DNA from: Topomyia yanbarensis
Taxonomy: Eukaryota; Arthropoda; Insecta; Diptera; Culicidae
Reading direction: 5' to 3'
Length of the DNA stretch: 64,000 bases
Assembly (NCBI RefSeq): GCF_030247195.1
Contig: NC_080671.1
Location: forward strand, 410,279,335-410,343,334
In this document: positions 521 to 48,794 of the stretch, piece by piece
How positions within the stretch are numbered: the stretch's first letter is position 1
How the letters are laid out: every line of letters starts with the position of its first letter
Notes under the pieces: generated by a model
The model's database searches: none
What the model was told of the DNA's origin: nothing
The model's input: the letters and a program-made list of their open reading frames with translations, nothing else
Program-made: the position numbers and the translations under genes

Positions 521-3264
521 ATGCGTGAATTAGTAATAAATAACATTCTAATTTATTTTATTTCGTTTCCAATGTCCGATGAATCAAAATGATTTTCGGT
601 TTCAGTGTTGTCCATTATGTCCCTGGTGCCGAATTCTGATGAGAAACGTTTAGTATTACTAATAGCGTAGGATCAACAAAGAACCTAAGCTCTGTTACAA
701 ATGGGCTTGATTAGTGAAACAAAGTCGTGTTGGAATTAAATTACCTCAGATTTGGGGGTTGGTTTCACTGTCACTTTCTCACTAGATTCAGCATTCCGAA
801 AAGGAACCCAACATATTTTTCTGCGCCAGCGGGTGTCTACCCAGGATCGGCACGAAGCAACATCACATCATGGTTGTTTGTTCGGTTTGGCACATGTTGC
901 CTCCTTCCTTACTCCTGCGATTCCAAGCGCACCGAAAAACGTGTGTCATATCTCTTCAAACGCCATATTTTTTGTGCTTCGGCGGTGGGTTTTTTTACCC
1001 GAACCCTCTGGCGAGGATGATGTTTCGCTGTGTTGCTCTTTTCCCACTCTCGCCACACATGGATGGTAACAAACAATTTTTCGTTCTCTAAACAGCGAAT
1101 CGCACTTTTTATGACACATACTTGCTATTTTCAACAGCAACGCTTTCATCGCACGCTTCGTAGTTTATGAAACATTGGTGAAATTGTTACCATTCAGAGA
1201 CCAGCGTCCTGTGTACTGATTCTATCACTTTCCCTCTCTCAGTCTCGCACACACGCTCACTCTTAGCAACCTGCCAGCTTACACCCCACCAAGCAACTTG
1301 CCAAACTTTATATGACCACTTGCGGATCGTGCGAAGTTTTTCGATACATTTTGCAATCGTTGTTGTGGCGATGGGTGGGGCGAAATAAAACGAAGCCTTC
1401 AACTAATATAATTTAACGTCCATTTTATTATCGCTTGATACCCGGTGGATGTACACTATATAGACTGGATTGGTTTTTCAAACTCGTTTTATGAATAGTA
1501 ACGGGGTTACAGAGATTATTATTTAAGTATTTTTAGTGGAACTGGACCCATAGTTAATTAAGGATATCTCTATTAGAATGGGACTCCAATTAATAGTGAT
1601 TTAATAAATTTCCTAAATCGACTGGATGGCAACAGTCTTCATGAATTTCATCCAACGAATACGAACCGCCGTACCAATGAAAAAATTCGAAAAGTTCCCG
1701 TCCTTATTTTCATTTCGTTCAGGATAGGTAATATTCTCATCAGATTCCAATTAGTCCGACGATGTAAAAGAATCGAGCCAATATCTGAACTACCAATCAA
1801 CTTCCCTGGTTCAATGCAGGTCAAGATCAATTATATCCTTCTTCCAAGAAGTGAATGCTTCCAATGTAAATCTCATAGATAACAGGATTAATTAAATTGC
1901 TGTCTTATTCGAACTCGCAACGAGATTGACCGATGAACCTCGAGGCCGGGAGTTCTACCAGTAGCGAAGCTACACATTGGAACGTGATTTATCCGGAAGT
2001 GAGGAAGTGAGACGTCATCCCCTGTCCAACCCTTCGTGATTGAGAGTTTATTTCCACCACTTGACTAGCAGCTGAGCCCAAGAGGGAAACGCACCAGATA
2101 CGAAGTGTATTTCTTTTCTCCCGGCATACGACCAGATTTTGCGAGAATACTACAGAAGGATTGCTGGAAGACACGCAAATAGCTTCATCAGCTCGTGGCC
2201 TTCGTGGAAGCACCTGTTGTTATGGCGGGAAGCGAGAAAAGGTGATTTTCCGAACGTGATGGATTTATTTTTATGTTCTCATCTACACTTAGAGGCCGGA
2301 TACGGAATAGACTTGGTTGGTGGGGGTCTGCGAGACCGACGAAATGAGAAAACTCTGCGCCTGGGTATTAATTTTCTTGCCGTGCGAAAGGTGCTGACTA
2401 AGGCGGCTAGTCGTTGAACCGAGGCGGAGAAGAACACCGAAAGACTGGATAATTAGCTTCATTTACTTGGTATTGCAGAAATTGCTTCCGGTGATGCTGC
2501 TGCGAACGATAAGACAAGGAAGCAATTCAGATAAGCATCTGTAACGAACATTCGGTGCGGTTTGGGGCAGAAACAATAATGATGGTGTTTTTTTTAATCT
2601 CAGTGAAAATGAGCACTGCCCTTGTTGAGAAAAGTTGATGCATATTTGGTAATATTAAGCTTCTTTCGAAATTTCTCAATTTGATGGGAAATTTGTTTAG
2701 CAAGTTTCCATTTTGCGAACTACAACCTAGATTGTGTTGTGTTAAAGGTCTGCTACAGTATTCTACACACTGAGGAAACGATGGATTGATTCAGGGTTAT
2801 GTTGAAATGTTTGATCCAATCGCATAAACCGTTATAGAATCGTTTCAGTCACTCAACAATTGTAATGTAACTGATATCATTGTTAATTTAAATTCGTTAA
2901 AGATACTATTGTATATATCAAATTAATGTCTACTTTCGATTAACGTGTTTTTTCACCGACCGCAGTTTGAACGTGTGGAATTAAATTGATAATATGGATT
3001 AATAAATTGATATTCAGTTATGTTTCTTATAATGTTATCTCTTTATTTAACTGTAATCTCAAAGTCTAGTTTGTAATTTGTTTGTAAATAATCGAAAAGT
3101 TTAATTTCGGACGAAATTTATATTTGTTTAAATCTGTTCTGTTTGGTCCCAAGCATTTCAAGAAAAAAATTTACTGCAAATCTGGTTTGTCATACCAGGA
3201 GATGACAAAATAATAATAAAGCTCGTTAAATATATAAAATTTACGATCTGAAACGAATTGAAAA
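521..3264. other. Intergenic or intronic DNA, no gene seen
   Basis: No reading frame here is longer than about 100 codons and none resembles a known family. Composition moves from mixed (700-2500) to AT-rich (2600-3250). I see no tRNA, no clear promoter and no obvious inverted repeats. It may be host intronic DNA or very old transposon remains. Confidence 0.5.
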
Positions 3265-3267
3265 TTA

Positions 3268-3352
3268 TAGGCCGTTCACCCAAAAATTCGGACATAAAAT
3301 TGTTTCACGGGCGAATGACGATCAGGCTAAAACCTAAATAAATAAATAATAA
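3268..3352 (+). mobile_element. 5'-truncated I-like retrotransposon 3' tail
   Basis: The motif GGGCGAATGAC at 3309-3319 is followed by an AGGCTAAAACC-like stretch and an AATAAATAAATAATAAA tail. The same order (GGGCGAATGAC, AGGTTAAAGCC, AATAAACAATAATAATAAT) ends the large I-clade element at 48390-48439. This is therefore the 3' end of a related, heavily 5'-truncated copy on the plus strand. The truncation point and target-site duplication are not clear. Confidence 0.6.
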
Positions 3353-3439
3353 ACCAACAAATTCCTAGTTCTTCATCGTTTCATAACGTTTGTGGCGGCT
3401 GTGGAAAGCAGTGTGATAAAAGTCTATTGTCTTTCTCCG

Positions 3440-3610
3440 GACAAAACCAGCCTAGAGCCATATGACATTCGGTGGGTTGAAGTATCTGAGACAAGAATCG
3501 ACCCACTCGGGTTCTGCTCCCATGTCGTAAGGGCCTGATTGTGTCGCAAATCGTGGGATTCAAAGGATGGTCATGTGCCTAACACCCATTTCGGGGTTTG
3601 GTATAGGCGA
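3440..3610. repeat. Retroelement-like fragment shared with 53.2 kb
   Basis: The 18-nt string CTGCTCCCATGTCGTAAG at 3514-3531 recurs exactly at 53200-53217, where it continues into AGGCGACTAACA. Strings of this type (CGTAAGAGGCGACTAA) are familiar to me from insect LINE 5' regions, but I cannot assign a family from the sequence alone. Confidence 0.4.
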
Positions 3611-12029: not shown

Positions 12030-13170
12030 GTTCGTTATCAAGAATATTGCTCAACCGGAAATCGTCATTTTGGATTTCGAAAAGGTTCCAATTGTTCATT
12101 TTTAGCATCTACTTGTCAAGTCTGTTCCAAAAATACCCATATTGTTAGGGTTATCGAGAATATTGCTCAACCGGAAGTCGCCATCTTGGATTTTGAAAAG
12201 GTTCCAATTGTCCATTTTCAGCATCTACTTGTCAAGCCCGTTCCAAAAATACCTATATTGTTATATTGTTCCATCTTGGATTTCAAAACGGTTCCAATTG
12301 TCCATTTTCAGTATCTACTTGTCAAGCCCGTTCCAAAAATACTCATATTGTTAGAGTTATCGAGAATATTGCTCAACCGGAAGTCGCCATCTTGGATTTC
12401 AAAACGGTTCCAATTGTCCATTTTCAGTATCTACTTGTCAAGCCCGTACCAAAAATACCTTTATTGTTAGGGTTATCCAGAATATTGCTCAACCGGAAGT
12501 CGCCATCTTGGATTTTGAAAAGGTTCCAATTGTTCATTTTCAGCATCTACTTGTCAAGCCCGTACAAAAAATACCCATATTGTTAGGGTTATCGAGAATA
12601 TTGCTCAACCGGAAGTCGCCATCTTGGATTTAGAAAAGGTTCCAATTGTCAAAATATTCAGCATCTACTTGTCAAGCCCGTCCCAAAAATACCCATATTG
12701 TTAGGGTTATAGAGAATATTGCTCAACCGGAAGTCGCCATCTTGGATTTCGAAAAGGTTCCAATTGTTCATTTTCACCATCTACTTGTCAAGCCTGTTCC
12801 AAAAATACCCATATTGTTAGGGTTATCGAGAATATTGCTCAACCGGAAGTCGCCATCTTGGATTTTGAAAAGGTTCCAATTGTTCATTTTCAGCATCTAC
12901 TTGTCAAGCCCGTACAAAAAATACCCATATTGTTAGGGTTTTCGAGAATATTGCTCAACCGGAAGTCGCCATCTTGGATTTCGAAAAGGTTCCAATTGTC
13001 AAAATTTTCAGCATCTACTTGTCAAGCCCGTCCCAAAAATACCCATATTGTTAGGGTTATAGAGAATATTGCTCAACCGCAAGTCGCCATCTTGGATTTC
13101 GAAAAGGTTCCAATTGTTCATTTTCAGCATATACTGGACAAGCCCGTTCCAAAAATACCCATTATTGTTA
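12030..13170 (+). repeat. 116-118-bp minisatellite with higher-order structure
   Basis: The start phrase CAACCGGAAGTCGCCATCTT recurs at 12168, 12374, 12490, 12606, 12724, 12840, 12956 and, with one change, 13074. Spacings are 206 (one full plus one truncated unit), 116, 116, 118, 116, 116 and 118 bp. Units fall into subtypes, and three consecutive subtypes (12490, 12606, 12724) are repeated in the same order at 12840, 12956 and 13074, giving a 350-bp higher-order repeat. The array is stop-poor and produces spurious open frames. Confidence 0.92.
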
Positions 13171-39995: not shown

Positions 39996-40955
39996 AAATT
40001 CCTGCTAGTTTCTAAGATTCCGGAGATCAGGAACCACTTACTTCGGATTTGTTACAGCACCCTTCAAGGGACACTCTCAGGCCTTTACGAGGAAGCTTAG
40101 GAAAGAAAACTGATGTTTCTCTTTCGAAAATTTATAGGCACATTAGAAGATGTTCTCAAGATCAAAGTTTGGAAGAGCAGATTCGGCGAACAGTTCGAAA
40201 TGAGGCTGATGGAAAATAAGTTGTTTTCATATACTCCTTGATTTTTCCTATACGCAATTGCTTGCGAACCAGAATTTTCACTGGCCGAAGCAAAGGGTTC
40301 TTGAAGGAGCGAACCCCATATTTCACAATTAAGGCACTTGTTAGAGACTACACCATCAATCTTTACTTTTCGGGCGGGTACATAGACAAGATCTTTGCCC
40401 TCATTCAAGTTTGTCATGAATATATACCAAATTCGTTACTGATAGTTTTTACATGTATCAGGCAACTTTGGGAAATTGGATTCTGAGATGATTATGACTT
40501 TTATTGGTATAGTTTACGATGAAAATACACTGAAAAAAAATTCAGTTTGGACAAGGAAAAGTTTTTTTTCAAATAACTTTTTTTCATTGAAAGTGCCCAA
40601 GTTGAATTTTTGACGGTAGGGTAGGGAATATAAATACCTATCCAGTTAGGTTCACTCACTCGGAGCCGATAGTTGTTCTCAACACAAGCTCCGCGTTTAA
40701 AAACCCAAACTTTCGCCCGGTCCACGCCACCCATATGGTTTCCGAAGCTCGGGCTCAGCCTCCCGGTTAGTATAGGGGAAGATGGGGTAAAACGCACCCC
40801 CTAAGGAAATATGATTATAACTAAGCTATAAAACATCAATTGGGAGAATTTAATTAATGATATCATTTAGCCAACATTTTCCAATGTAATCAAAATCATA
40901 ACGCTTTGCAAAATATTCAAAAACATGAAAATAATGTGTTTTAGTTTTAAGGGAT

Positions 40956-41030
40956 TTGCGTCAAGCCGGCGCTAATCTATTCCGACAATGTGTTAGTGTC
41001 GGTTTCTGATGAGGCGAAGCCGAAACGCAA
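40956..41030 (+). ncRNA. Hammerhead ribozyme, copy 1
   Basis: Stem III: TTGCGT (40956-40961) pairs with ACGCAA (41025-41030), 6 bp. Cleavage triplet GTC, predicted cut between 40962 and 40963. Stem I: AAGCCGGCGCTAA (40963-40975) pairs with TTAGTGTCGGTTT (40993-41005), 13 continuous pairs of which three are G-U, closed by a 17-nt loop. Core strand CTGATGA at 41006-41012. Stem II: GGC/GCC with a GAA loop (41013-41021). Core GAA at 41022-41024. Stem III is the open helix, so this is a type III topology. All invariant catalytic-core bases are present. Confidence 0.88.
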
Positions 41031-41299
41031 CATAGTATGAAATAAGGATTTGTGCCCTCCTGTACAAAGACTGGTTTTTACCAACAAATTTTCACCCTAG
41101 TGAGAAATTTTGGTTTTTACCAAATTTTCCTCCTTAGGTTGAAATATAGCATAGTGCTTTCGCATAGGCCTGCTAAGCCAAGACAAGTTTCGGTTTCACT
41201 TGTGTCTCATCGGCATAAACAGAACTTCTGCTCGAACGGGACATCACGTTTGATCAGTCGTTTGATTGAAACACATAGTGTGTTTTAGTTTTAAGGGAT

Positions 41300-41374
41300 T
41301 TGTGTCAAGCCGGCGCTAATCTATTCCGACAATGTGTTAGTGTCGGTTTCTGATGAGGCGAAGCCGAAACGCAA
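41300..41374 (+). ncRNA. Hammerhead ribozyme, copy 2
   Basis: Identical to copy 1 except for one C-to-T change in stem III (TTGTGT at 41300-41305 opposite ACGCAA at 41369-41374). The change turns a C-G pair into a U-G wobble, so the fold is kept. Predicted cut between 41306 and 41307; CTGATGA at 41350-41356; GAA at 41366-41368. It lies exactly 344 nt downstream of copy 1. Confidence 0.88.
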
Positions 41375-42366
41375 CATAGTATGAAAATAATTCAATTCTT
41401 CGAAATCATTAAAAATCACCTTTTGAAAAATAAGCGGGGCAAAACGCACCTGTGTGGGGGCAAAATGCACCACAACAACGGGGTATAATGCTCGGCGAAC
41501 AAGCAAGTAGTTTTGTTTTCTGACGAGATTTCACAAAAGTGTGCCATTAAATAACCTTAGGTTATGCAATTGGTAGGTTTTCAGAACGATTTTTCTGTTT
41601 TCTATTACAAACCAGCAAAATCAGAAAAGAGGGCATTTTGCCCCCGATGGAGCAGAGATATAAATTTAGCAAAAAGTGAATTATTTAGTAGATTTTTCAT
41701 ATGTAGTACGACAAAATAATGAACAACGTTATAAATAGCACTGGAATGCTCTAATATAATAGTAAAACAGTATTTATAAGAGCGGAAAATCCTTGTTGCA
41801 TGAGCCACAATAATTATATGAGAAGAGCACGTTATTGTTTTTTGTTTATTTCTCGAGCTGCTTTGATGTACGGTTATCAAACTTTTATAGTGTATGTTTA
41901 TTATGGCGGACTTACGACTGGTGTTACCGTTTTTTAGAAATTTTCAGTTGTTTTCTATGTAAGCAAAGGGTGCATTTTGCCCCGGGGGTGCGTTTTACCC
42001 CATCTTTCCCTACCATCTGGTTTCCGTCCGGTCCGTTACGCGAGTGCGAAGTGCCGTGTAAGTGCGAAGGCTACTCGAATTTTAAGCCGAAAATTCAAAA
42101 TCGATTTTCCCACCGATACTAGGAGCACAGACTCCGAAGGAGTTGAGCGATAGCGCGTCTCCATCAAATCAAAAAGTGCAAATCGTGGTCAACCGTCCGC
42201 CTCCACCACGAGCATTTGTTTGAACAATTGCACGTGCGCGCGAATTCAAACCGAAATAGTGTAATCGGCTCCATAGGTGCCGGCGGTAGTGTAGTTCAGT
42301 GTAGAGGGTGCATTTTGAAAGAGCCAACTTTCGCCCACCGCCCACAACCCATAAACAACCCACCTA

Positions 42367-43239
42367 ATGGGGGAACCTCCCCCTCTTCCCACCCCGGGGA
42401 GCAGCGGCCCATCTTTGAGTCGGACTTTGCCAGGGTACTTAAACTCTGGCGATATAATTGACAAGCAGACTCTGCTACTGTGCGCAAAATCATTGGATGG
42501 TGATTTCGATGCCCGACTGAAGACTAACCCGTTCACGATTTTGAAATTGGTACAACGTGTCTTAGGATGCGATCCGACAAAGGTGGTTTCGGCCACAAAA
42601 GAAGGTAGAGGGACCCGCTATGTCTTAAGGACGACATCGAAAAAGGCATATAACGCTCTGATGAGTTTGAACGAGCTGATCGACGGGCAAAAAGTTGAGG
42701 TGGTTTCTCACCCCACTCTCAACATTACTCATGGTGTCGTTTACGATATCGATACTAAAGACATGAGCAACGAAGAACTTCTTGACGAGCTGAAAGGTCA
42801 AGGAGTTACAGCAGTGCGTAGGATCACCAAGCTGCACGAAGGAGTAGTGAGCAATACTCCTCTGGTGGTGATATCTTTTAGTGGCTCAACCCTCCCCGAC
42901 TACATTTACCTCGGATTAGTACGCACTAGCATCCGGCCCTACTACCCATCCCCCATGCTATGCTACCGCTGTGGCAAATTTGGGCATGGCACTAGGGTGT
43001 GCCCCAAGGAAACTTGCTTGAATTGCAGCCTGAACCACCCATCAGCCAAAGATAACCCATGTACCCAAGACTCGAAGTGTATAAACTGCAGCGGAGAGCA
43101 CTTAGCAAGAGCAAAAGAGTGCCCCAAATACATGGAAGAGGTAGCCATCATTAAAGCGAAAGTTTCCCTAAACCTTTCCTTCCCCGAAGCAAGAGCTCTA
43201 ATAACACAAAAGCGCAAAGGACCAAGTTACGCCGAATAA
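42367..43239 (+). pseudogene. I-element ORF1 (gag-like, CCHC zinc knuckles)
   Basis: The frame opens with ATG at 42367 and runs 290 codons to a TAA at 43237-43239. ORF1 proteins of I-clade elements bind element RNA and form the ribonucleoprotein that moves it. The middle region (about residues 60-190) is the usual gag-like domain, ending NTPLVVISFSGSTLPDYIYL. Three zinc knuckles follow at about 200-260: CYRCGKFGHGTRVC (C-x2-C-x4-H-x4-C), CLNCSLNHPSAKDNPC and CINCSGEHLARAKEC. The TAA is almost certainly a nonsense mutation (CAA to TAA would restore the phrase), because the same frame stays open for another 115 codons, and a frameshift follows near 43560. Proline-rich N-terminal residues (GEPPPLPTPGSSGPSL) suggest the true start could be further downstream or upstream. 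Confidence 0.85.
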
Positions 43240-43734
43240 ACCCAGGAAGGCACGGAATCGAAAAACAACGAGAAAGATTCCACTATCGCTAGACTGAAGG
43301 CGGAGCTCATTAGGCTAAAGGGCGAAAAGAGCAATTCGCCAAAAGATGACCGGGACGATGAGATATTAAACCTAAAAAACCACCTAGCGGAGGCTGTTCG
43401 CCAGCTTAGAATTGCCAAGCAACAACTCACCGAGGAAACGAAGGAAACTAGCAGAGCTAACACTTCACCGAAAGTAGAGCAGGGAAACGTCAACAAACTA
43501 AACCCAACCACCACGATATCGACCGAATGTAACGTAGTAGCCGCGAAACAACAGCGAGACCCCCGACTTCGTGACGAACGATAGCAGCAAAGAAATCGTA
43601 GCCGAGCAGGCGATGGGGATAAAGCCCTATCGGAAACAAAACAGAGCCAGCACCACCGAAACAACAACAGACACCAAAACGACGCAAAGCTCCTTGCCCC
43701 AAGTGTCTTTCGTAAGGTCCGACTAGCCTTACAA
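43240..43734 (+). pseudogene. ORF1 C-terminal extension after the nonsense codon
   Basis: In frame with ORF1 beyond its TAA, the text encodes a charged, probably coiled-coil stretch: STIARLKAELIRLKGEK, DDEILNLKNHLAEAVRQLRI and AKQQLTEETKETSRA, with leucines at heptad-like spacing. It stops at 43582-43584. A one-base shift around 43560 gives a better continuation (ETPDFVTNDSSKEIVAEQA, then GIKPYRKQNRA, ending SFVRSD) to a stop near 43725. ORF1 of the active ancestor was therefore about 450 residues, with a C-terminal coiled coil that could serve in multimerisation. This is inference. Confidence 0.6.
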
Positions 43735-43799
43735 CGATCATAGCAACTGGGGATGCCAATAAAAAACAACGAATTGAACAGCAACATAAAACAAAGCCC

Positions 43800-44740
43800 G
43801 CCTGTTTCGACCCTCACCGGGGAAGTTCCGGATACGTCCGACGAACCCCCGGCGGCTGTCGACACAGGACCATTGGAGCACCAACAGGGAAGTACCTTTA
43901 ACATCCCCATTAGCATTCGAGTTACGCATTCACTATCCATCTCAGGCCAACCAGACAGAAATCCAGAAAATCCACCAACACAGCAATCCCAAACGACGGG
44001 AACCACGACCGCCTCCAGCGCCCCGCATCTTGCCGGGCCCCAGAGTAGGCGATCTCCCCGCTTGATCTCAAAATGACACCAGTATCAGGAAAACTAAGCG
44101 AACAGCTCCACTGCAACGAGAACCGGTTCAGGTCTCCCGATACCGAGTACGACGAGACCTCAGCCCGGTTCCCGGTTGCTCTTGGCATCCGGTACGTTTT
44201 AGACCATTCAGGAATCCAGTAGTCACCAATCGTGAAGCCCACTTCCCCGTGCCGGCCCTGACCGGGAACGTTCCGCCTTGCAGCGATGCTCCCCCGGCGG
44301 CTGCTGGTGCGGGAGGCCCGGGCACATCCCAGGTAAGTTCATATCACCATTCCAACCGACAAGAACAATTCTGCGCCACAAACTCTTTTTCAAGGAATGA
44401 TCGAACTGCCGACGTTTGGCTGATCACACGCTTCAGAAAACGATACCAAAACCTACCCGCAACGCAACGCACAAAAACCACCGACACAACGCCTGCGGAC
44501 ACCTTGCTCTACCTCCCGTGGTCATTGGAAGGGACGTACGCCAAACCACCCATCAACAACTGCAACAAAAATTACCCCCTCAACACAAACAAAGCGCACG
44601 AAACCGATAGCTTCCTATAAAGGGAGAAAGCCTCTTCCCCTGCACTAGCCCTGTCTGCGGACGTACCGGCCCTCATCGACGAGCCTTCGGCGGCTGCTGA
44701 TGCAGGGGGCACGGATCACCACCGGGTAAGTCTAACAACA
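43800..44740 (+). repeat. Triplicated segment between ORF1 and ORF2
   Basis: A GC-rich motif occurs three times: near 43810 (CTCACCGGGGAAGTTCCGGA ... CCCCCGGCGGCTGTCGACAC), 44258 (CTGACCGGGAACGTTCCGCC ... CCCCCGGCGGCTGCTGGTGC) and 44650 (CTGTCTGCGGACGTACCGGC ... CTTCGGCGGCTGCTGATGC). The last two are followed by CAGGTAAGTTC and CGGGTAAGTCT. Translated, they read LTGEVPDTSDEPPAAVDTG, LTGNVPPCSDAPPAAAGAG and LSADVPALIDEPSAAADAG. Spacing is about 450 and 390 bp. The purpose is unknown; it could be repeated regulatory sequence or an amplified coding linker. Confidence 0.75.
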
Positions 44741-46089
44741 CCCTACTCCCACCAAGATCAGTCGTACGGCTCCGAATCATTTCCAGGTAGCCCACCGCGC
44801 AGTCTCAACAGCGTCTCGATGACCAACAGAACCGGCTCAGAATATTCCACGCTAGCCGTCCAGTGGAACATCAATGGCCTAAGGAACAACCTAGGGGACC
44901 TACAGAACATAATCGCCGGCACCGAACCACTTTGCCTCGCCATTCATGAAACCCACTTGTACACCGGCGAATACGAATGGGAGACGGCCAGAAGAGACAA
45001 CAACCACCAAACCATCGGATTGGGAATTAAGGTTACACTCCTGTCGGTGCACCTCCTCCTCAACACGGAACTAATAGCTGTCGCCAGGAGGATATCAACC
45101 CCTATCCGCTGCTCCATTGTATCCATCTACCTACCACAAGGGGTTACCAACATACGAAGCCAACTAACCAGCCTGATCAACCAGGTCCCCGCCCCATTCA
45201 TCGTCATGGGGGACCTCAACGCACACCATACGGCCTGGGGCTCGGACAAGTGCTGCCACCGAGGTAACGAGATCGTCAAACTCATCGAGGAAATCGACGC
45301 TGTGATACTAAACGACGGCAGTACCACGTTCATCCGTGGCAACGCCTCCTCCGCCCTCGACGTCACCTTCGCCTCCAGTTCCATCGCTGGGATATGCGGC
45401 TAGTCCACGTCCAACGATACCGCCGGGAGTGACCACTTCCTCATCGTGCTACGCATAAATCGCCTCCAACTTAAAACCACCCGACGAAGACGTTGGCTAT
45501 ACGAAAACGCCAACTGGGATGCCTACGACGCTGCCATACAGTCCCACATTGATCGAGACCGTACGTACTCACTGGTCGAACTCTGAGAAACTATCGTCAA
45601 CGCAGCAGAAGAAACCATCCCCCGAACAAGCGGGGTACCACCACACCGTGCCGTGCACTGGTGGAATCCGGAAGTGGCCGCTGCCGTCAAAGCTCGCCAG
45701 AAAGCTCTCCGCACCTTACAAAAAACACCGCCCAATCACCTCCTTCGGGATCAAAGAGCGGACAACTTTAGAACGCTCCGAAACGCTGCGAGGAAAACAA
45801 TCCAAGCGGTTAAAGAAACCAGCTGGAGGAACTTCGTGGACGGTATCCACATGGACTCCTCAACCACGGAGCTGTGGAGACGGGTCAACGCGCTCAATGG
45901 CAAACGTCGACAAAATGGCTACTCTTTAGTGGTCAACAACACCACCATTACTGATCCCGAGGAAATCGCGAACAAGATAGGCTGCCACTTCGAATCGTTA
46001 TCCGCCGACAAAGCCCTGCCAGCCGCATTCGCTCAGAAAAAAGTAGACTCGAAGCCTCCTCTACGACCTTCACGCCAGACTCCGCAGCC

Positions 46090-46989
46090 ACCTACAACAG
46101 ACCCTTTACCGGAGCTGAACTTGCCGTCGCTCTCACTAACGCACGAGGAAAGCCCGGCGGCCCTGATAGGATTGGTTACCCGATGCTTAGGCATCTTCCG
46201 CCCAGAGGCAAAAGAGCCCTCCTAGACTCTTTTAACACTATCTGGGAACGCGGGTCCTTCCCAGAGGAATGGAAACAGGCCCACGTAGTCCCCATTTCTA
46301 AAAAATGCCAGGGTACCCGTGCCCCGAGCGACTTCAGGCCAATCAGCCTGCTGTCATGCACCGCTAAGACACTGGAGAGGATGGTCAACCGGAGACTGAC
46401 CACGTGGCTGGAAGCCGAGAATCTACTCGACCCACGCCAATTCGCTTTCCGGAAGGGATTCGGCACCGGAGCCCACCTGGGCTCGCTCGGCGAGGTATTA
46501 GACAGAGCAAGATCCGAAAGCATCCACGCCGATATTGCCATACTCGACATAGCAAAAGCTTACAACACAGTCTGGCGCGAAGGCGTCCTTCAACAACTCC
46601 AACGATGGGGCATACAGGGGAACCTAGGCGTCTTCATCCAAAACTTCCTAACCAACCGCCGCTTTCGGGTATGCTTAGGCGGCACACTCTCCGACGAATC
46701 CCGCGAGGCCAACGGAGTGCCACAAGGTTCGATACTAGCCGTGACCCTCTTCGTAGTGAGGATGAATTCGCTCTTCACCGTTCTACCCGGGGGCGTCTAT
46801 GTCTTCGTGTACGCGGACGACATCATATTGGTGGCCCTCGGGAAGACGATCCCGCGCACAAGAATATCTCTGCAGGCCGCCGTCAACGCAGTCGGCCGAT
46901 GGGCACTCGCCACTGGATTCAACATCGCCGCCACTAAGTGCGCCATAACACACTGCTGCAGCACATATCACCCAGCCAACGCTCGTTAA
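46090..46989 (+). other. Reverse transcriptase domain of I-element ORF2
   Basis: The longest intact stretch of ORF2, in the frame used from about 46040 to the TAA at 46987. It shows all RT core motifs: ISLLSCTAKTLERMVNRRL (fingers), AILDIAKAYNTVWREGVL (motif A; the first Asp is present, the Asp usual at the later position is Asn), NGVPQGSILAVTLFV (motif B, usually followed by SVTLF) and VFVYADDIILV (motif C, catalytic YADD at about 46810-46821). The domain could still fold, but lies out of frame with the rest. Confidence 0.85.
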
Positions 46990-47574
46990 ATCCGCCTCAA
47001 CGGTACAGTAATTCCGTTCCGAAAGGAACCGGTCGTCCTCGGGATCACCCTCGACCGGAAATTGACAATGATACCACACTTCCGGCAACTGAAAAAAGAC
47101 AGCCAGCGCTGAACGTCGGACGATCTCTTATCCACAGCAGAATCTTCTACGGGATCGAGATGACTTGCCGGAACCTAGACGGACTCTCCGACATCCTCGG
47201 GCCCTTATACCACGGAGCGGTGCGGCTAGCCTCCGGTCTACTACCGAGTACCCCGGCCGAAGCTGCCTGTGTAGAGGCAGGAGTACTACCCAGCCGCTGG
47301 GAAACAGCCAGGGTGGCCTTCAGAAGAGCACTAAGTTTCCTGGAGAAAACTTCGGGCGACGAGTGCCCCCTTCTCACCACCGCCTCCAACCTGCACCAGG
47401 AGTTCACCAGCAACGACCTCTCACCCATCGCTCGTCTACACCGGGTGAGACCACGGGCCTGGTACGACCCCGGACCCAACACCGACGACAGCCTTGCTCG
47501 CACTATAAAAGTTGGCGACCACCCAGCAGCATACTAGTTAAATATAGACAGCTAATTAACCGAAGATATTCACA

Positions 47575-47935
47575 TCACACTAAAATCTTTACCGACGGTT
47601 CCAAAGCGAACGACGGTGTAGGAACGGGGATCAGCGGCTTGGGGAACGGGCTCTCCTTCCGGCTACCTCCCTCCTGCTCAGTTTTCTCGGCGGAAGCGGC
47701 CGCCATTGCAGTGGGAATGATCAAAAGACCCACCGATCCACCGACGGTCATCTTTACAGACTCGCTCTCGGTCCTGAGGGACGTCGCTAGAGGGACCTCC
47801 AAACATCGCTTTGTTCAGGCCATCGAGACACTTCGAGACCCACTGGTCACCATCTGCTGGGTTCCGAATCACAGCGGCATCAAGGGTAACACAGATGCCG
47901 ACCGATTAGCCCTCATCGGCAGACGGGCCCGGTCC
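47575..47935 (+). other. RNase H domain of I-element ORF2
   Basis: KIFTDGSKANDGVGTGI gives the first catalytic Asp, VFSAEAAAIAVG the Glu, VIFTDSLSVLRD the second Asp, and NHSGIKGNTDADRLA the histidine and last Asp of a type I RNase H. The acidic D-E-D-D set is complete. Presence of this domain separates I-like elements from Jockey and most R1 elements. Confidence 0.85.
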
Positions 47936-48389
47936 CAGGGAATTCAACACCGGCTTGCAGAACGTATTCACCAACCACTGGCGGAGTTCTCGAAATCACA
48001 CCCAAAAAATCAAAGGCTCAGCCGACACCTGGACCGACGGAGATAGCCAGAGGGAACAAAAAATACTCTCCCGACTCCGCGTGGAGCACACACGAGTAAC
48101 CCACGCACACACCGTGTCCAGCGAGCCCGTCCCAGAATGTGCCTCCTGCAACACCCGGCTCACCGTCGAACACCTGCTGTGCAACTGCCGATAACTTGAG
48201 GACCTACGGCGTCAGTACGGCCTGACTGGTCCGATACGGGACACCCTATCCAACGACCCGGTTCGGGAGGAGGCACTCCTCCTCTTCCTAAAGGACGCCG
48301 GCCTTTACGACAGCATTTAAACAATAAAATGGATAACGCAAACAAAATGAAATGTAACATTTATTAATTGTAATTCCGCTTTATTTCAT

Positions 48390-48439
48390 GGGCGAATGAC
48401 CTATAGGTTAAAGCCCCAATAAACAATAATAATAATAAT
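48390..48439 (+). terminator. I-element 3' end and TAA-repeat tail
   Basis: GGGCGAATGACCTATAGG, then AAAGCCCCAATAAAC and (AAT)n. The last 15 nt are TAA-type repeats, as in Drosophila I-type elements, where they serve in target-primed reverse transcription. The target duplication TACCTATC follows at 48440. Confidence 0.75.
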
Positions 48440-48794
48440 TACCTATCTTGCAACAAAATTTCATCCAAATCAAAGATAGTTTTCTTTGTAAATCGATTTA
48501 AAATTTTTAAAGTCGATTTTTTTTCAGTGTGTTTTCAAAAATTTGACTAATTTTGTGAATTTCTCTCCTATAACATTTTTTTGTAGGATTTGTCATTTCT
48601 AGATTATAGCCATTTGAAAAAAAAAAATTGGTGACACAAGTTTGACGCTTTTGAAAAGACAGTCTAGATCATTTTTGAAAAAAAACAAAGTATGCAAAGT
48701 GGCTTTTTGTGACAAAGTCTTCATGTACAGAAAATTTCAATCTTAGAGGGTGCTACCAACTACGATTTAGCGCGAAATTCGTTTATTCTATACT

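Follow-up and report, generated by a model that had tools for sequence, protein, structure and literature searches.

We analyzed a 64,000-nt stretch of the genome of Topomyia yanbarensis, a mosquito of the tribe Sabethini (GCF_030247195.1, NC_080671.1, positions 410,279,335 to 410,343,334; hereafter, the window). The window contains an insertion with two type III hammerhead ribozyme motifs, within which a 344-nt unit (G+C 0.41) is present in 1.3 copies (Table 1). An initial annotation made from the sequence alone had read this insertion as a retrozyme whose RNA is copied by the reverse transcriptase (RT) of another element. Here, we compare the insertion with its dispersed copies and with a Penelope-like element of the same genome.

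Table 1. Features of the retrozyme insertion and the element that hosts it (window positions).
Feature	Position	Strand	Basis and details
Host element of the insertion, 1.24 kb	40773-42012	.	29-bp terminal inverted repeats TAGGGGAAGATGGGGTAAAACGCACCCCC (97% complementary)
Left target site duplication, 11 bp, ATGAAAATAAT	40925-40935	.	Exact repeat at insertion flank
Retrozyme insertion, 445 nt	40936-41380	+	1.29 units; borders from target duplication and alignment to unit
First type III hammerhead	40956-41030	+	Predicted cleavage 40962/40963; type III scan, pair counts over copies
First hammerhead, stem III (TTGCGT/ACGCAA)	40956-40961 / 41025-41030
First hammerhead, stem I	40963-40975 / 40993-41005
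First hammerhead, CTGATGA	41006-41012
First hammerhead, stem II (GGC-GAA-GCC)	41013-41015 / 41019-41021
First hammerhead, GAA	41022-41024
344-nt unit between both predicted cleavage sites	40963-41306	+	Spacing 344; would give a linear, then circular RNA
Site A (unit 66-92, peak 76-80), ..CGCAACATAGTAT	41028-41054	+	52/96 outer RNA-3' ends
Site B (unit 186-206, peak 192-194), ..AATATAGCATAGT	41148-41168	+	39/96 outer RNA-3' ends
Stretch complementary to ribozyme core (unit 225-250)	41187-41212	+	Circular folds of window unit and consensus
Second type III hammerhead	41300-41374	+	Predicted cleavage 41306/41307; stem III U-G replaces C-G
Right target site duplication, 11 bp, ATGAAAATAAT	41381-41391	.	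Exact repeat at insertion flank

The two direct repeats noted in the initial annotation are each 112 nt long (40931-41042 and 41275-41386), lie 344 nt apart, and are 98% identical. Using a scan for type III order (stem III, UH, stem I hairpin, CUGANGA, stem II hairpin, GAA, stem III), we identified exactly two sites in the window, both on the + strand and none on the - strand, and 0 sites in 150 simulated windows of matching dinucleotide composition. A less strict scan gave one additional site, which is chance-like and relies on the second core. All core bases and the three stems of 6, 13 and 3 bp appear in each copy in this order, as annotated, and the single C/T difference in stem III keeps its pairing as a U-G wobble. 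The annotated borders (40935-41380) fall within one base of those set by the target site duplication. With core and stems intact, the motifs are predicted to self-cleave.

In the covariance check suggested with the annotation, Rfam Hammerhead_3 (RF00008) matches each copy with a score of only 18.7 bits, below the cut-off of 48.5, and the Rfam alignment places the stems differently from the type III scan. At gathering thresholds, the Rfam search of the window found nothing. For the second copy, folded as an isolated 83-nt piece, the hammerhead is not the fold of lowest free energy; an alternative fold is more stable by 2.9 kcal/mol. Based on pair counts, the ribozyme core is well kept across genomic copies, 20 of the 58 loci having been selected by exact core match.

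Dispersed copies and the structure of their insertions

A 30-nt ribozyme core pattern, allowing up to 3 mismatches, gave 6,750 matches in the genome versus 0 for the reversed control. The further copies that the initial annotation proposed to look for were thus found; the unit is dispersed in thousands of copies, as tandem and partial multimers with target duplications, which bears out the retrozyme reading. A scan of viral contigs for the exact 25-nt core returned no match. We assembled a sample from a similarity search, in which 40 of 339 candidates were scored, yielding 89 matches that were merged by hand into 38 loci including the window, and from the leading 20 clusters among the exact core hits on C1. 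The resulting 58 loci hold 59 insertions, at most 57 of them independent, because two pairs of loci, L012/L013 and L060/L061, each represent a single insertion in mirrored copies. In both pairs, the flanks are common to both copies, at different places, and so these are duplicated segments or assembly duplicates. The mirrored L013 and L061 were excluded from the count of 31 insertions given below and from the target-motif, joint and arm 5'-end counts; they were retained in the duplication-length, core pair, covariation and outer-end counts. Two pieces, each >1 kb from its array, were omitted from the end counts: a 29-nt piece at L056 (86%) and a 102-nt minus-strand piece at L065 (76%).

Each insertion consists of one or two arms, which are multimers of the unit, and where an insertion has two arms, the retained segments place them head-to-head. 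Among the first 100 exact ribozyme hits, neighbors less than 2 kb apart comprised 19 in the order - then +, 0 in the order + then -, and 14 on the same strand at a spacing of 342-344 nt. The longest arm, in L022, contains 10.75 units. L022 and L011, which lie about 1 Mb apart, agree in an unusual inner joint, where the minus arm extends to unit 169 and is followed by plus 77-115 and then by plus from 187 onward; their flanks differ, and L011 is without a duplication.

The outer RNA-3' ends of the arms fall at two positions of the unit, sites A and B, whose windows were set after data inspection: 91 of 96 such ends lie at A or B (Table 1) and 5 elsewhere. The 22 outer 5' ends are scattered. An exact flanking repeat of at least 9 bp was identified for 40 of the 59 insertions, with lengths of 11 bp (24 insertions), 12 bp (9), 10 bp (3), 13 bp (2), 14 bp (1) and 15 bp (1), where exact matches may run one or two bases long through chance or bases common with the element. 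In 400 random flank pairings, evaluated in slightly shorter windows, repeats of at least 9 bp occurred in 11 and of 11 bp in 2, and 344 gave 4-6 bp.

Two-armed insertions account for 33 of the 40 that bear a repeat, and all 33 are head-to-head with one end at A and one at B (31 without mirrored copies). By alignment alone, 32 two-armed insertions have an A end and a B end. The other 7 repeat-bearing insertions are one-ended; they include the window insertion, which based on unit alignment has its RNA-3' end at site A and an opposite end of the scattered 5' kind. In the repeat-bearing insertions (at least 9 bp), the inner length varies from 136 to 2,857 bp. At the 36 joints between arms, the two arms overlap by at least 1 nt in 21 cases, meet flush in 1, are separated by gaps of up to 25 nt in 12, and show larger gaps in 2.

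Immediately beyond the duplicated bases, 31 sites show a tendency to AAAC at one border and GTTT at the opposite border, and GTT directly follows the duplication in 25 of 76 half-sites versus 45 of 2,128 background positions. We infer that a symmetric motif with an 11-bp interval is the trace expected of two endonuclease copies, one per strand. Within the arms, 87 of 102 cross the predicted cleavage site, indicating that the template was continuous there; a circle and an uncleaved linear multimer would both fit. Arm 5' ends lie within 2 nt of the cleavage site in 6 of 98 cases versus 1.4 expected, a modest peak that is equalled near 182-187.

Sequence differences between units bear on whether one RNA served both arms. 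Across the first 38 loci, mean unit differences are 0.0205 within the same arm, 0.0192 between opposite arms of one locus, and 0.0358 between loci. Counting as rare those variants present in at most two loci, with mirrored loci kept in the count, 17 locus-variant cases extend to all units in both arms, and a further 4 are seen in both arms but only in part of the units. This within-locus likeness and the variants common to both arms suggest that both arms come from the same or a nearly identical RNA.

Based on structure prediction, the window unit folds as a circle at -107.1 kcal/mol versus -75.9 +/- 4.9 for 100 dinucleotide shuffles (z -6.4; other strand, z -2.5), and the consensus unit gives z -6.4 (other strand, z -4.6). 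Paired columns change at a rate of 1.65% versus 3.00% for unpaired columns. One-sided changes preserve pairing in 293 of 470 cases versus 165.5 expected, a type of count that shared ancestry inflates. Within the predicted circle, the ribozyme core (unit 44-65) pairs with unit 225-250, with probabilities of 0.93 and 1.00 for the two sampled pairs, and the circle is thus predicted to be switched off, with the hammerhead blocked. The fold also contains a predicted multi-branch loop, with A just inside its first hairpin and B just inside its third, although the hairpins at A and B have probabilities of only 0.16-0.27.

A Penelope-like element in the same genome

A search of the genome for GIY-YIG sequences, in which 150 of 439 candidates were scored, gave 5 matches. 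Around the match with the longest open frame (L066), RVT_1 and GIY-YIG domains occur in one 456-aa frame, and we identify L066 as a Penelope-like element. At least 329 proteins resemble this frame; among the 120 listed, most are nameless, the best named match is from Malaya genurostris (73% identity), and other named relatives come from further mosquitoes, Teleopsis and Chrysoperla.

We then compared the 3' ends of the Penelope copies, using the best 40 of 2,982 DNA candidates, of which the 39 other than L066 were read. Among these 39 ends, 22 stop at or near CTTTGAAACATTA and 17 continue through ~35 nt of common sequence; we read the latter as the "tail" ends of the Penelope literature. An alternative reading of the 17 as tandem read-through was dropped in favor of tail ends, two having been seen beyond that point, plus L029. 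A CATAGT upstream of the Penelope 3' end was likewise considered as the second start and dropped, since L029 shows the second end ~35 nt downstream.

Two Penelope pairs in the order - then +, with starts 4.5 and 5.2 kb apart, each combine one tail end with one no-tail end, and both are flanked by an exact 11-bp repeat (TCCTTAAACCT and GTGAAATCGAA); in the second pair, two extra bases precede the right repeat. The signature of the retrozyme thus occurs in two insertions of a Penelope element in the same genome. Downstream of Penelope no-tail ends, the target motif is weakly enriched (21 distinct flanks).

Among the same best 40 matches, a third - then + neighbor pair lies 8.8 kb apart on C3, and the sole + then - neighbors lie 6.0 kb apart, also on C3. 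At C3:221921971-221937107 (G000), three Penelope 3' ends occur in 15 kb in the order +, -, +, and both + ends have identical flanks. In L029, a retrozyme is inserted inside a 5'-truncated Penelope copy with a tail end (~868-3545). Just after the reading frame, L066 (~2095-2160) and L029 (~945-1005, - strand) carry CTGAAGA-GATTAC..GTAATC-GAAA-TACCGGTA-TC. Read by eye, this motif (L066, about 2105-2150) could be a minimal type-I-like hammerhead; an Rfam search of L066 did not list it.

Proposed mobilization and alternative explanations

We consider it likely that the element is a type III retrozyme mobilized in trans by Penelope machinery, with two start sites and head-to-head complementary DNAs (cDNAs). 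The DNA directly shows two start sites that are each used once in a two-armed insertion, an 11-bp duplication, head-to-head arms, and this signature again in two insertions of a Penelope element; a Penelope-like element is thus a specific candidate for the foreign RT that the initial annotation had proposed in general terms. Under this mechanism, multimeric RNA would be cut by the hammerheads into 344-nt units, which would close into circles in which pairing with unit 225-250 is predicted to inactivate the ribozyme core. A Penelope-like protein with RT and GIY-YIG endonuclease domains would bind the retrozyme RNA in trans and cut both DNA strands 11 nt apart at AAAC-N11-GTTT-like sites. Both DNA 3' ends would then prime cDNA synthesis, one at RNA site A and one at site B; each cDNA would run round or along the RNA for a distance ranging from a fraction of a unit to more than 10 units, and the two cDNAs would be joined head-to-head, often at short overlaps. 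The enzyme itself would not come from the retrozyme, which would be a non-autonomous passenger: no open reading frame (ORF) of at least 150 aa, the minimum length in the ORF list, overlaps the window insertion, and RT and GIY-YIG domains are not encoded by it among ORFs of that size. A more specific version, in which the two RT entry sites lie round the predicted multi-branch loop of a circle, a Penelope dimer binds both, and one circle templates both cDNAs, is possible but falls somewhat short of an even chance.

Several observations weigh against this mechanism. Flanking repeats of at least 9 bp are lacking in 19 of the 59 insertions. One two-armed insertion (L036) has B at both ends, and in four others (L011, L027b, L040 and L047) an end lies at neither site; all five are without a repeat of at least 9 bp. 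Rare locus-variant cases confined to one of the two arms number 188, as would be expected from later mutation or copying errors. The two-ended Penelope signature rests on two pairs, and in the first of them one or two border bases may belong to the element, such that the duplication may be 9-11 bp. A comparison of A and B with the Penelope 3' ends revealed no similarity above background, and recognition would therefore need structure, or another Penelope family. Compensatory covariation was sought in the unit alignment and not found, two-sided changes amounting to 3 cells versus 7-13 in slid controls. Within the hammerhead, stem II is only 3 bp long and no loop-loop contact was identified. From published work, start sites of the Penelope protein PAc of the lizard Anolis were no different between DNA strands (PMC11167929), which means that Penelope elements are not yet known to follow a one-of-each rule; furthermore, the authors who described head-to-head Penelope copies in the rotifer Adineta vaga explained them by self-priming on antisense RNA (PMC3846280).

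That explanation can be transferred to the present case as Penelope mobilization with head-to-head arms formed by self-priming rather than from both DNA strands. We regard it as decidedly improbable, because both outer ends are start-site ends, they are of different kinds, and the target motif is symmetric on both sides; moreover, purified PAc extends both DNA strands (PMC11167929). The same features of the ends bear on a long interspersed nuclear element (LINE) with an apurinic/apyrimidinic endonuclease (APE)-type enzyme as the source of the machinery, with inverted arms produced by ordinary twin priming. LINEs with inverted 5' ends and target duplications do occur, and a LINE with endonuclease, RT and RNase H domains adjoins the window insertion. 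In LINE twin priming, however, the second strand begins at scattered internal sites, unlike the fixed A and B, and here duplications cluster tightly at 11 bp, the target has a symmetric motif, and each of the two arms stops at a fixed RNA position of its own kind. Together with the Penelope element of the same genome, which has the same signature in two insertions, these points make the LINE route improbable. A DNA transposon with short inverted ends (ACTATG..CATAGT) and a fixed target duplication would account for two-armed copies with short inverted termini and a duplication of nearly fixed length; given that the inner length varies so widely, that joints occur at many places, that one-ended copies exist, and that the arms are multimers of the 344-nt unit, we find this hardly credible. 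A plain satellite or tandem repeat that happens to contain a hammerhead-like motif would fit the tandem arrays such as that of L022, but the insertion borders refute it: the insertions are dispersed, with duplications and fixed ends. Given also the absence of the motif from all 150 simulated windows, its probability is close to negligible.

Two further alternatives concern the RNA and are compatible with copying by a Penelope RT. If the template were uncleaved linear multimeric RNA, the ribozyme would have no role in transposition and circles would not take part. The large share of arms crossing the cleavage site favors this, as does the case of lizard PAc, for which unprocessed RNA is the main substrate and ribozyme mutants insert normally (PMC11167929). 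The well-kept core (with the selection of loci noted above) speaks for an active ribozyme, circles are documented for other retrozymes (PMC7229834), and the modest 5'-end peak at the cleavage site, equalled near 182-187, merely hints at cleaved linear templates; on balance, we judge a purely linear template unlikely, although a serious contender. A viroid-like infectious RNA replicating from RNA to RNA in the mosquito, with DNA copies made by a Penelope RT, is suggested by the compact, highly paired + strand and by a ribozyme predicted to be blocked as in viroids and plant retrozymes (PMC7229834). Given that the DNA copies number in the thousands and that the ribozyme is restricted to a single polarity, as expected of retrozymes (PMC11721086), this explanation is very improbable.

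Should the version with a Penelope dimer on one circle be correct, the two-site rule would explain the occurrence of a "tail on one of two inverted repeats" in Penelope elements, and thousands of mosquito insertions would be a record of the Penelope integration mechanism. The mobilizing enzyme of animal retrozymes has so far been open, with Penelope named as a strong candidate on indirect grounds in the sections compared of PMC7229834. Here, a retrozyme and a Penelope fingerprint occur in one genome, each with the 11-bp duplication, head-to-head arms and two start sites divided between the two sides. The pairing of one A end with one B end newly constrains how Penelope integration may proceed. 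A type III ribozyme with a predicted plant- or viroid-like blocked core in an abundant animal retrozyme also bears on ideas about the origin of such ribozymes.

Relation to described systems and surroundings of the insertion

The comparisons in this section refer to the compared sections of the cited papers. Metazoan retrozymes without long terminal repeats (LTRs) resemble the present one in carrying hammerheads in short tandem repeats (150-450 bp) with G+C <50%, in showing no coding capacity and duplications of >4 bp, and in having a strongly self-paired predicted circle (PMC7229834); in that 2020 paper, Cervera and de la Peña proposed Penelope elements as their mobilizers. Published metazoan retrozymes have type I hammerheads, whereas that of T. 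yanbarensis is type III, which is therefore unusual for an insect retrozyme, as the initial annotation had remarked (PMC7229834). The ribozyme is predicted to be blocked in the present circle; blocking has been published for the circles of plants and viroids, whereas most animal circles are not described in this way, and exceptions to free folding in animal retrozyme circles are named (PMC7229834). The borders and double-start signature described here are absent from that account of metazoan retrozymes in the sections compared. Plant LTR retrozymes share the type III ribozyme, blocked in the circle by a complementary stretch, but they differ in unit length (about 600-800 nt versus 344), G+C (>0.55 versus 0.41), duplication (about 4 bp versus mostly 11) and signature, which is Gypsy-like rather than Penelope-like (PMC7229834, PMC7761336).

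Penelope-like elements share with the retrozyme two internal RT starts, use of both strands, head-to-head inverted copies, and duplications of ~8-11 bp (PMC11167929, PMC3846280). Purified PAc cuts and extends both strands, uses two internal start sites, and is a predicted dimer, and PAc also has a hammerhead in its RNA (PMC11167929); Penelope copies in A. vaga are head-to-head, only one of the two bearing a tail, and have duplications of 8-10 bp (PMC3846280). In the retrozyme unit, about 115 nt separate the two start sites, versus 30-40 nt in Penelope. Moreover, the retrozyme encodes no protein and its ribozyme is type III, in contrast to the putative minimal type-I-like motif of the local Penelope copies.

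Type III hammerheads in dipteran genomes have already been published as motifs (PMC7936874), hammerheads in interspersed repeats of Aedes have been noted (PMC3088659), and a 2020 review refers to elements with type III motifs in insects from work in preparation (PMC7761336). The atypical type III hammerheads of dipterans, termites and hepatitis delta virus-like RNAs share with the present motif the type III topology, a long stem I and occurrence in insects; however, the termite genomic motifs are reported as isolated and the dipteran ones as examples, more being announced as in preparation, whereas those described here lie in retrozyme multimers, and the atypical motifs have a GCCR/YGGC pseudoknot and a 6-bp stem II rather than a 3-bp stem II with a GAA loop (PMC7936874). 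Among the matches listed in the open-licence literature, there was no mosquito type III retrozyme family and no A/B end rule.

The inverted-repeat element that hosts the window insertion (Table 1) adjoins a LINE and probably splits its 5' region. In this LINE (42014-48440), Exo_endo_phos_2, RVT_1 and RNase_H domains occur in separate frames, and the sequence terminates in TAA repeats. A GGGGCAAAACGCACC-type motif recurs inside the inverted-repeat element. A weak tRNA-like match over site B (41140-41210; 16.7 bits versus a cut-off of 29, E 1.3) is probably due to chance, although it may conceivably mark an internal Pol III promoter. Elsewhere in the window, a 116-bp tandem repeat array of about 8-10 copies lies at 12034-13170.

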